From contig NC_091219.1 in the NCBI RefSeq assembly GCF_040958095.1, positions 27,751,410 through 27,815,409 of the forward strand: 64,000 bases of DNA. Direction: 5' to 3'. Below, piece after piece: positions 13,400-62,620 of this stretch (positions are counted from its first letter, which is position 1; every line of letters begins with the position of its first letter). Made by a program: the position numbers and the translations under genes. This DNA comes from Procambarus clarkii (taxonomy: Eukaryota > Arthropoda > Malacostraca > Decapoda > Cambaridae). The notes beneath the pieces are model-generated. The model did not search any database and was not told the DNA's origin. It saw nothing but the letters and a program-made list of their open reading frames with translations.

Positions 13400-13564
13400 G
13401 AGATCCCTTTTATATAACCGTATTATGAATGAAAACAAGTGGGATATTTGCCCTAATTGTGAGCGTGAAGTGACTGTAGTGGGCCGTGGCCCCGAGAGTG
13501 GCTGAGGAAGTGGCCGGCGAGGTAGCCAGTGGCCGTCACCACCATCTTGTGAGGGAAGCTGAAG
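13400..13564 (+). other. Probable 5' UTR exon 1 of the THAP/zinc-finger gene
   Basis: A GC-richer island (ggccgtggccccgagagtgg) ends in gggaagctgaag followed by a perfect donor gtaaga at 13565. No start codon is needed because the first ATG lies in the next exon. The transcription start is not visible, so the left edge is approximate. Confidence 0.45.
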
Positions 13565-13659
13565 GTAAGACTTCACCTCTCCTCTCACTTTATGGCTTGG
13601 GCCACGGGTTTAGCCAGGATGCGTGTGTTGGAAATATGTTTTAAGAGTGTGGTGTAGGG

Positions 13660-14430
13660 TGTGGGGGGCGAGGTAGGGGGTGGGGGTGGGGGAGGGTTTA
13701 TACTCATGGGTGGTTGGGGCTACGGGGGTAAAGCCAATGATCTAAACAATGGTGTAAAATGTTCTCTCTCTCTCTCCCCCAGCTCTGGCCTACCTCCCCC
13801 CCCCCTCTGTCTCTCTTCCCATGCTCCAGCTTATAGTGTGGGTGCCGTGGGCTTATTTACAAGTCTGGGTTACAATTATCACCATGTCATCTCCCACCTC
13901 TCGTTTCCTCCTCCCACCTCCTGATGTTTCCTCCTCCTACCTGACGTTTCCTCTCAGTCATATATTCTTCCTCCTCCTTATTCCACTTCCTGAACTTTCA
14001 TCCCTCTCTGACTTTGTTTTCCTGAGAACACTCCATAGCAATCAATTGACTCAAGATGCAGTATAAAGTATATATATATATATATTATATATATATAGGG
14101 GACACCACTTCTGGTTGCATTTGTAGGGACCCTCGGCCCCGAAGATGATGATATGCAGCATCCGGGGGAGCCTTCTGGGGCACCCGTGTACACTCACATA
14201 TTGCCTTCTCCTACTAACCCCCCCCCTCCTATATTTTGTATATTTTGTCATTTTATTTCAGTTAAAACTTCTTTACACAAAATGGATTACAACATTGGTT
14301 ACATGCAAGGTACAAGGCTAATTGTCACAGGTTGTCGAGCTCTTCCAGCTTCTCAGATGGCTGGCAGGAACCAAGGATGCAGTGTGCATTTTCTTGTATA
14401 TTATATATATTATTATTATTTTTTTTTATT
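13660..14430. other. Intron 1
   Basis: Contains a G-rich stretch near 13663-13690, pyrimidine runs at 13765-13800, (TA)n at about 14070-14095, and a distant relative of the 7199-7335 repeat at 14098-14235. No gene is seen. Confidence 0.4.
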
Positions 14431-14434
14431 GCAG

Positions 14435-14522
14435 TGTACCTGAGTGAAGAGTTTAATCATGAGTAGTGGTGAGCGTAGACCACTGAAGCGGAAGGCAGAG
14501 GAGTCACTTGAACAGGAACATG
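14435..14522 (+). CDS. Exon 2: start codon exon of the THAP/zinc-finger gene
   Basis: Acceptor ttttttttattgcag ends at 14434. The ATG at 14459 starts MSSGERRPLKRKAEESLEQE, a basic-then-acidic segment that could hold a nuclear localisation signal (PLKRK). The donor gtaaga begins at 14523, so the exon ends in phase 1. The first 24 nt are 5' UTR. Residues 1-21. Confidence 0.7.
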
Positions 14523-15175
14523 GTAAGATATAATTTAGCTATAACAGTGGATGAAAATGTTGCTTCATGTTTTTTTAATGTACTTTACAGTTGTGTTTAT
14601 TTGTAGGAATACTGATAGGTGAATATCATAGTTTTCTGGGAGGCCTCCTAATGGTGGTCACTTGATGGACAGATGTAATAGGACCCATTATCACCACACC
14701 AGAAATAAATCTCTCTCTGATATCCCCAGAGTCAAACTTAATCTGTGTAAACATTCTATGTAAATAAAGGGACCTAGCCACTCCCTAATGAATTGAAAAG
14801 CTGTCCAACTTTTGCATCATTCAAAAACAAAACTAAAAAGTACCTAATTTCATCTTCATAATTTCCTACCTTGTAGCTTTATAATTGCACTGTATCTAGT
14901 GCTACCCAATCTCCCAATCTTATGTACCTAATCCAAACAACTTTACCATTGTGATCATTGCTGTCTTCTTATATGTGCTATCAATTTGCTGTATGTCTAT
15001 TAATCTTTGTTTAAATTACCAATTAAGCTGTCAATGCAATCAATCAGAGCTACCAATGTGCTTTAATATACTTACTAATCTCTCTCATCTGATTTTTTTC
15101 TTGCAATGTACCTATTATCACTATTAATTCTGCTAGGATTTACCTACTTAAAATTATCTGTTAGATTAAGGACCT

Positions 15176-15298
15176 GCCCGAAATGCTGCGCGTACTAGTG
15201 GCTTTACAAGAATGTAAATATCATGCTATGTATCCTCACAAACCCAATGTACCTTCTTGTATATAAATAAATAAAAATAAAATAAATAAACAAATAGA
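15176..15298 (+). mobile_element. SINE family I, 3' tail only
   Basis: acctgcccgaaatgctgcgc, then gtactagtggctttacaaga, and an aataaataaa tail. It matches the 3' half of the full copy at 57079-57345. Confidence 0.65.
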
Positions 15299-15396
15299 GT
15301 AGTGAAAACCAAATGAACATAATGTATGTGAGTGTTGGGCTCTGGACAATGACATAGGGGCTAATTTTCAGCATATGGGAGACATAATAGATATAA

Positions 15397-59516: not shown

Positions 59517-59784
59517 TATGACATGTTTAATTAAATTATTTTCTGTTCTTGTAAGCAAATGCAATAATATAAATCACTTATAAAAGAACTGTTTACTTAT
59601 TGATTGGCCCAAGGCATAGGGTGTAGGCTAAGGTCAGTTTGGCTGGATATAAAGGAATGCTTATAGTAAATACCAGTGGCAGGAGAATGGTGTCATCATG
59701 TACAGTATACCAAAAAATCACCCTTAATACAGAGTTCATTAACATTAAAATATGAGATGAAATAAATAGCGACCTTTATTTTAT
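59517..59784. other. Spacer after exon D
   Basis: AT-rich, unassigned. Confidence 0.4.
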
Positions 59785-59860
59785 GTCTCTCTCTCTCTCT
59801 CTCTCTCTCTCTCTCTCTCTCTCTCTCTCTCTCTCTCTCTCTCTCTCTCTCTCTCTCTCT
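59785..59860. repeat. (TC)n microsatellite
   Basis: About 38 TC units. Confidence 0.97.
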
Positions 59861-59987
59861 GTGTGTGGGTGTGTTTGTGTTTGTGGTGAATTAGTACTGT
59901 CTGCCAGGGGGTGGACCAAGGGAACGGAGGTTCGAACCCTAGTCGTGCCATTTTGTCCTTAAGTGATTTACGGCATGGGGACTATTC

Positions 59988-60095
59988 ATATATATATATA
60001 TATATATATATATATATATATATATATATATATATATATATATATATATATATATATATATATATATATATATATATATATATATATATATATAT
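59988..60095. repeat. (TA)n tract, about 108 bp
   Basis: Uninterrupted TA dinucleotides. Confidence 0.97.
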
Positions 60096-60215
60096 CACAA
60101 TAGAGTGGTGCCGGTCAAAACAGGCAGTAGTTTCAAAGCATTATATGACAATAAGTATTGGGAAGACGGGACACCACGAGTTTAGCTCTCATCCTGTAAC
60201 TACACATGTCCTTCT
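60096..60215 (+). mobile_element. LINE 3' end scrap
   Basis: tgacaataagtattgggaag and gggacaccacgagtttagct are the complement of the terminal part of the LINE fragments at 38862 and 56565. Confidence 0.55.
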
Positions 60216-61334
60216 CTCTTACAAACATTACTTTCCCTTCCCACTCATCAACTCTTCCCTCTCGCCAACACAATCTTCTCCATCATCGTCCCCTCCCCCA
60301 ACAACATCAACTGTTCTCCATCACTTCCACAAACACCTCTAAAGTGAACAAGGAGAATCAGAGTGGTAAAGTGCACACAGAATTCATTGGAACCAACTAT
60401 AGAAGTCCGCAGTTAAGTGGACTTCAAGTTGAAAAGTCGGACCAGGCAGGCAAGCCGCCGCCGACACAAAAACAAAACAAAAATTTATTTGCCGAAGTTT
60501 CGTTTTAATTTTGCTCAAAGGGGCAAGTTTGTTGGGCAGCCGTGAGGGAACATACGCTATAGTGACAACTGGGCAGCGCCACACATCCTGTGAGTGAACA
60601 TTCCTCCATAACAACATATAACACCCTCAATCAGAAGAAAACCTGCTCCAAGTTGTTCATCCTGTCACTTAATAATATACGCAATGCCCGGCCTTGTCGC
60701 AGAACCCTGGACAAAAATAAAGCCAGCTAGTGGGAAAGTTAAAGATAGTGGTTAGGGGACATTTACAACTTCAGTTCAATACCAGGGCCAGGACTCATCA
60801 AGCACTTAAGTGTCCACTTACGAATCCTGTACATCTATCCTCAGTAATGACGGCTTTGTTTACATTTATTAACCATGTATAAGCTCTGAAGCTCGAGATG
60901 CCGACCATAACAGGAATATCCTTGAGTCGAGAACGCTCTCATGGCACTTTGTTTGGGAACAAAGCACTTGTTTTTTGGTTTTAAATAATGACAACAGTTA
61001 ACACGAACTCTGTCATCTTCCATAGAAAAATTTAGTGAATAACAGGAAATATTACGAAATATAACTGCTGCTTATTTATACAGCAAGTGCTCTACGGTGC
61101 ACCGAGTCGTCCGCTATACCTTAAGACTTCAGTTGATAATTACCAAATATGAGACGAAAGAGGTGACTCCACTAGGTTTTATGTATAACTGGACTTTTCC
61201 CATTTTAATTTAATAGAAAGAGAATAGTTAGCAGCCTCCCTAGACGCACCTTGCGTAAGGTTACAGATCTCAAGGTGTCGTGTTTACCTTAGCCCGTCAT
61301 ATCTTGCCTACTAACTTACACATTTCTTCCCCAG
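60216..61334. other. Spacer before exon E
   Basis: No gene or repeat is recognised. The first half carries short plus-strand frames without domain similarity. It ends in acatttcttccccag. Confidence 0.4.
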
Positions 61335-62620
61335 ACCCTGGAGGCCATGTCTTAACCAGCACGGTGAAGGCGTGTCTCCCTGCCTCCAGGCCACACCTAC
61401 AGACTCCTCCCCAGGAACACACTGGTATCTGTGCGTCTACAGGAGAGAGCAGCGCTCACCCTCCCTCAGCGTTGCATGCTGCTCCACATAGACATGAGCC
61501 CCACAGAGATGGCGGACCGAACAAAGGTGGGGCATCACAGAGAGACGGTAGATCACCAGGAACCAGAAGGTTACAGAGAGGCGGCTCGTCGCGCACAGAT
61601 GGACCGGACAGAGAGGGTGTGTCAGAGAATGAAGGGAGCACTAGCAAGGCGCATTACTCGTGCGATGAGTGCGGGAAGACGTTTACTCAGCGGCAGGCGG
61701 TGAGGTACCACAAGGTGTGGCGACACAACGCCGAGCGCCGCGGACCGTGTCCTCACTGTAACTATAAGGCTCCAGACTCCACTAAACTTACACTTCATAT
61801 AAAGAAAGTGCATCGTGGATACATGCCGTACAAGTGCAAGTTTTGCACTAAACAATTTAAGTGCCACTCTAATCACAAGGAACACGAAGCACGTCACCAG
61901 GGAGGCGGAAACTTGAAGTGTCAATTCTGCGAGAAGAAGTTTGCCCTTCGATCATCTCTGGAGCGTCATGTCCGCTACCACAACGGAGGAAGACCATTCT
62001 GCTGTCAACATTGTGGCAAAAATTTTAAAGTTAAACCCCATCTTGAGCGTCATGTAAAATGTATCCATCTGAAGGAAAAGCCTGTCATATGTAAGGTGTG
62101 TGGCGCCGCTCACCACAACAACTGGAACTTGAAGACACACATGAAGATACACCAACTTTGTGAACGTAACCCTGGCCACTCCTGCAGCGTTTGTTGCTGT
62201 CAGTTTAAGAACAGCTCCGGTCTGATGGCTCACATGCGTAAGACACATACCGTCACTGTTGACCAGCCGTCTCAACCTGCCGAGCTGGAGGCCACGGTAC
62301 CAACAAGTTCAGCCGAGTGTCCACTTGTGAGAGACGAGCCAGACACCAGTAGAGGCCCCGAGGAACCACCAACTGAACAACTGCCAATCATACTCCAGGC
62401 TCAGATGACGGATCATCGTACCATAGTTATCCACGATACCTCCCCACACCACCACCAGCCTCCACAACTTGACCATCACTTGCCTTATGATGAACTCCTT
62501 CAAGGCTCCTCCATGCACACGCTGGAACTGTATTCCTGTGATAACTGTCTTATGGTATTTCAATCGGAGGAAGAGTTACTGGAGCATCGTTGTACACACT
62601 CATTCACCACTAGTCAGTAA
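61335..62620 (+). CDS. Terminal exon E: C2H2 zinc-finger array (7+1 fingers)
   Basis: Phase-1 acceptor at 61334/61335. Encodes 428 residues. It starts with about 110 low-complexity polar residues rich in G, R, D and H (for example DGRSPGTRRLQRGGSSRTDG). Seven fingers then run from YSCDECGKTF (equivalent to finger 2 of the other arrays) to HSCSVCCCQF; finger 1 is missing. A spacer of about 95 residues with poly-His/Pro precedes the isolated finger YSCDNCLMVFQSEEELLEHR. Linkers HQGGGNL and HLKEKPV keep the register of the other exons. Like exon D it is GC-rich. No AATAAA is seen close to the stop. Confidence 0.85.

Follow-up and report, generated by a model that had tools for sequence, protein, structure and literature searches.

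A stretch of 64,000 nucleotides (nt) of Procambarus clarkii (NC_091219.1, 27,751,410-27,815,409, forward strand), hereafter the window and the frame for the positions given below, probably carries one gene in which a shared THAP-domain body is completed by one or another of five C2H2 zinc-finger ends (T1 to T5), a reading to which we assign a probability of about 0.8. The ends would most likely be alternative last exons, cis-spliced to the common body. A first-pass annotation of this DNA had proposed one body with several finger arrays; at the DNA level the proposal is supported by an array family that, by the two arrays queried, is private to the locus, by tails free of upstream in-frame ATG codons, by candidates for separate 5′ exons at the control rate, and by a body found at no other place. 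We infer that body and tails are spliced, share one promoter and differ in their target sites.

The constant body

The twelve coding exons that had been claimed could be rebuilt with AG/GT borders into an in-frame body of 600 residues with no stop, AG acceptors preceding exons 2 to 12 and GT donors following all 12. All lay on the plus strand: exon 1, with the ATG, at 14459-14522; exon 2 at 17549-17793; exon 3 at 18343-18537; exons 4 and 5, which encoded the two halves of the THAP domain, at 19340-19479 (C177, C182 and W207) and 21960-22071 (C227-x2-H230); exon 6, with an AT-hook-like GRPK core, at 22401-22498; exon 7, with a basic KGRPHR core, at 24717-25008; exon 8 at 26193-26305; exon 9 at 27742-27904; exon 10 at 28772-28846; exon 11, with the acidic tail and a phase-1 donor, at 31024-31261; and exon 12, the last constant exon, at 31880-31945. 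The latter, a basic exon of 66 nt entered and left in phase 1, indeed ended in the phase described for it. Eleven exons were located through their open frames and splice signals, and exon 8, needed to enter in phase 0 and leave in phase 2 between exons 7 and 9, through a scan of the intron for pieces bridging these phases, in which 26193-26305 was the better of two candidates over the thresholds (summed score 9.5 versus 4.5). Another piece tried as a body exon, 29142-29267, was dropped, since it disrupted the frame and lacked a GT donor at its chosen end.

Upstream of the ATG, an in-frame TGA was observed at 14441-14443, which would belong to the same exon if the AG that ends at 14434 serves as its acceptor. 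A possible non-coding first exon or promoter-proximal region, a putative start judged from sequence features, was located at 13400-13565 (plus strand) with a gtaag donor after ...GCTGAAG.

None of 5000 chains of random intron pieces of equal lengths was free of stops. With a codon model for which the five tails and two astacin frames (see below) served as training sequences, the body chain scored 64 against a random-chain mean of -139 (standard deviation 34, maximum -29), a contrast flattered by the use of the same pool to train the non-coding side of the model, which leaves the stop count unaffected. The claimed frame was stop-free in all 12 exons and scored best of six in 7 of them, the margin being wide for exon 11 only. 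In exon 2 a rival frame scored higher than the claimed one but carried three stops. A second frame of this exon (17549-17620) read EEAKLEKKQELKYWLQAVQRLAI followed by a stop, coiled-coil-like by eye, in a phase that misfits exon 1. The weak points of the chain were the acceptors at 18343 and 22401 and the donors at 19479 and 22498, all with low scores on a simple matrix.

Pfam THAP (PF05485) matched body residues 177-234 with 30 bits, above the gathering cut-off of 23.9; the match covered model positions 1-61 of 87 and crossed the junction of exons 4 and 5. The six residues of the C2CH signature (C177, C182, W207, C227, H230 and F231) were all found as reported, and the closest solved structure was that of THAP11 (PDB 2lau, expectation value (E) 5e-5). 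The acidic tail was likewise present, with 40% acidic residues over positions 505-585, and AT-hook-like cores stood at 268 and 369, neither of which was matched by a Pfam AT-hook model at E 0.1. No Pfam family besides THAP, and hence no BTB domain, was detected in the 600 residues at E 0.1, and residues 253-600 gave no match in PDB at E 1.

The five zinc-finger exons

Five later exons on the plus strand, each said to possess a phase-1 acceptor, a C2H2 array and its own stop, were confirmed to continue in frame from the phase-1 donor. These were T1 (35745-37033; 9 fingers, first in-frame methionine at residue 57, before the array), T2 (42946-44213; 9 fingers, first methionine at residue 60, inside the first finger), T3 (51600-52834; 8 fingers, first methionine at residue 18, before the array), T4 (58314-59449; 8 fingers plus a degenerate first one, first methionine at residue 137) and T5 (61335-62620; 8 fingers, first methionine at residue 164). 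Fingers were counted by pattern, and Pfam zf-C2H2 matched in all five tails. From the in-frame stop upstream to the first finger, T1 to T5 contained 38, 17, 21, 7 and 42 AG dinucleotides, respectively, and in every tail the top-scoring one was the claimed phase-1 acceptor, with a phase-2 AG of T5 coming close (5.3 versus 6.1). The first AATAAA or ATTAAA lay 26 to 1367 bases past the stop of each tail, at signals that also arise by chance in AT-rich DNA.

T2 and T3 were homologous across the acceptor, as T4 probably is to both; the string CTCATT-CAGA-CAGA at the acceptor was recognized by eye in all three. The homologous block extended from -54 to +38 of the acceptor, at 42892-42983 in T2 and, one base shorter, at 51547-51637 in T3 (both plus strand), with 87 of 92 positions identical. 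Its intronic part was identical at 51 of 54 positions, against 433 of 670 nt in the arrays. Two copies of the block were found in the assembly, both at this locus, which speaks against an origin as a repeat; the similarity could stem from local gene conversion or from a splicing element under constraint.

The tails shared 26% to 53% identity over aligned residues. Silent sites were saturated in nine of the ten tail pairs, the tenth (T4/T5) having a ratio of nonsynonymous to synonymous substitution rates of 0.28, and all frames were open for 378 to 429 codons; thus, the tails are old duplicates that have been kept open. Four helix positions of a C2H2 finger usually contact DNA, and by this rule the five tails had five different contact sets at each of fingers 3 to 8 and four at finger 2, with 14% to 50% identity of contact residues between arrays. 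The arrays therefore likely differ in DNA binding. Selection for such a difference is not shown: identity at the helix contacts was lower than at other variable finger positions in six pairs and higher in four, and an apparent faster divergence at the contacts lost its support once the invariant ligands that had biased the first comparison were removed.

Genome context of arrays and body

Genome-wide searches were run on one assembly (4.03 gigabases, 2308 contigs), with T2 and T5 as the array queries. For T2, of which 99 of 4791 first-look candidates were scored, 225 matches were obtained, the best four non-self ones being T3, T1, T4 and T5 (379, 326, 176 and 131 bits) and the next locus outside this one reaching 114 bits. 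For T5 (98 of 8560 candidates scored), the best four non-self among 270 matches were T4, T2, T3 and T1 (168 to 130 bits), followed by a match of 90 bits. For both queried tails the arrays at this locus were thus one another's nearest relatives and, judged from these two queries, make up a family confined to it.

The body gave 23 matches at E up to 10, with 73 of 112 candidates scored. The best 12 corresponded to the exons of the body at this locus, the best match elsewhere had an E of 1.24, and no spliced retrocopy was observed among the 23, so that the body was found only here.

In a strict pattern scan of a 214-kilobase (kb) stretch around the window, with about 145 kb of readable flanks and with 5000 N bases past the window and 409 bases before it left out, the only arrays were these five, all on the plus strand downstream of the body; the one further return, at window-relative position 131672, was an isolated frame of 49 codons that matched the pattern once. 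The sequence directly past the window end (27815410-27820409) reads N, and a sixth array could lie there.

Proposed mechanism and alternative explanations

In the proposed scheme, an N-terminal constant body of about 600 residues, acidic and THAP-containing, would be made with one of five C-terminal arrays of 8 to 9 fingers. The phase-1 donor at 31945 would be cis-spliced to one of the five phase-1 acceptors, and the selected finger exon would supply the stop codon and the poly(A) site. Were the symmetric 66-nt exon 12 skipped, the donor at 31261 would be used instead, and the tails could thus be reached from exon 11 as well. Read-through past the exon 12 donor (31946-31953) encodes GKK and then a stop, with two codons between the shared glycine and the stop, and a constant donor left unused would accordingly yield a finger-less protein ending in GKK.

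The same immediate stop, together with AATAAA signals from 32332 onward, also fits an unlikely alternative, that is, a finger-less THAP gene ending soon after 31945 and followed by a tandem row of five independent C2H2 genes, each having its own promoter and small 5′ exons. Clusters of C2H2 arrays do occur elsewhere in the assembly, e.g., on contig C101. However, none of the five tails had an in-frame ATG between the upstream stop and the acceptor, and in T2, T4 and T5 none occurred until inside the array. A strict scan of the five intervals for start exons (ATG-started stretches of at least 20 codons with a phase-1 donor scoring at least 5) gave no candidate on the plus strand and one on the minus strand as control, and a loose scan (at least 10 codons, donor at least 2.5), which 10 of the 12 donors of the body itself pass, gave nine on the plus strand, in keeping with separate genes, versus six on the control strand, with none on either between T4 and T5. 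Candidates for separate 5′ exons are thus not in excess over the control strand, in scans that are themselves weak. Within 3 kb upstream, blastn aligned T2 with T3 at the acceptor block and at the array only, and a search between the intervals for a duplicated 5′ exon returned 84 noisy plus-strand matches, the longest of them repeat-like.

Several points weigh against a single gene. T1 and T3 carry their methionines ahead of the array, as separate genes might; the strict scan would pass only four of the 12 donors of the body (exons 1, 3, 11 and 12), and small or weak-donor 5′ exons are therefore possible. The acceptors of T2 to T4 were weak on the simple matrix, those of T1 and T5 being good; the weaker ones are as expected if some tails are regulated, on a matrix that is crude. 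Since duplicated exons inherit their phases, the phase agreement of the tails counts as few events. A genome-wide THAP search gave seven places, this locus not among them, as expected because the search takes no account of introns and an intron interrupts the domain here. No other THAP exon for a nearby array was found in seven loci of only about 3.2 kb each. Finally, the case is built from the DNA sequence of one genome.

It is also improbable, though compatible with the same layout, that arrays are transcribed from starts of their own and that trans-splicing then joins some or all of them to the body. Trans-splicing has been described for lola and mod(mdg4) (PMC1947980, PMC11426971), and in cis, splicing to the downstream tails must skip as many as four terminal exons that lie before them; on the other hand, cis-splicing over 31 kb on one strand requires no special step. 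Comparison of the intron after the constant donor with the 1.5 kb before each tail, for complementarity of the docking and selector kind, revealed only short antisense matches, the best outside T1 being 28 bases before T4 (E 0.005).

It is improbable as well that the body is spliced to no more than one or two of the tails (T1 and perhaps T2) and that the remainder are duplicates in decay: T3 lacks the isolated last finger and T4 has a degenerate first finger, a low-complexity repeat tail and a weak acceptor, but every tail retains 8 or 9 fingers and all five frames are open despite the silent saturation noted above.

Other features in the window

The minus strand has a tandem pair of open frames for astacin metalloproteases, at 2047-3015 and 9109-10077 (Pfam Astacin, 155 bits each), with 264 of 322 residues identical. 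Beside each lay a minisatellite open in several frames (3168-4083 and 10230-11133). A match to RNase H at 5429-6058 on the plus strand (Pfam, 35 bits) is probably a retroelement fragment.

Comparison with known end-swapping genes

A constant BTB body with alternative ends is known from tramtrack (ttk) and broad (br). These two genes and mod(mdg4) are likewise built of a constant body and alternative ends; their bodies are of the BTB type, whereas here the body is of the THAP type. Drosophila lola is described as having common N-terminal exons and unique C-terminal exons, most of the latter with zinc fingers, and as giving at least 20 isoforms, three of them without fingers (PMC1947980). In an account of BTB factors, lola and mod(mdg4) are given BTB bodies, the alternative ends of mod(mdg4) carrying FLYWCH domains in most isoforms; in Drosophila, swapped DNA-binding ends are reported there as common in TTK-type BTB factors, which usually bear one or two C2H2 fingers, and non-TTK BTB-C2H2 proteins as having one isoform each (PMC11426971).

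The crayfish locus resembles lola in its constant part and alternative terminal exons, which are in the phase of one donor and have stops of their own. It differs from lola, where the body is BTB, in its THAP body, in the 8 to 9 fingers of each tail, and in tails that are recognizable duplicates. As the body has no BTB domain by Pfam, the gene would work like lola, ttk, br and mod(mdg4) without being a member of their family.

With THAP-family proteins, e.g., THAP11 (2lau), the predicted protein shares the C2CH THAP zinc finger, which is internal here (177-234) rather than N-terminal. In human THAP proteins the domain is N-terminal. We know of no THAP gene with swapped C2H2 ends, and none was described in the titles and abstract openings of a literature sample that leaves most subscription journals outside. 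Such isoforms may already be contained in automatic gene annotations of crustaceans.

We give about even odds to the fuller proposal that a swap locus of the lola type arose independently on a THAP body and that it encodes, besides a finger-less form, no fewer than five C2H2 factors with long arrays, tail choice being made partly through the duplicated T2/T3 acceptor element. If the reading of a single gene is true, the constant body of end-swapping factors need not be a BTB multimerizer, each protein would combine a constant DNA-binding module with a swappable one of another kind, and the locus would offer a fresh case of a donor choosing among widely spaced last exons.

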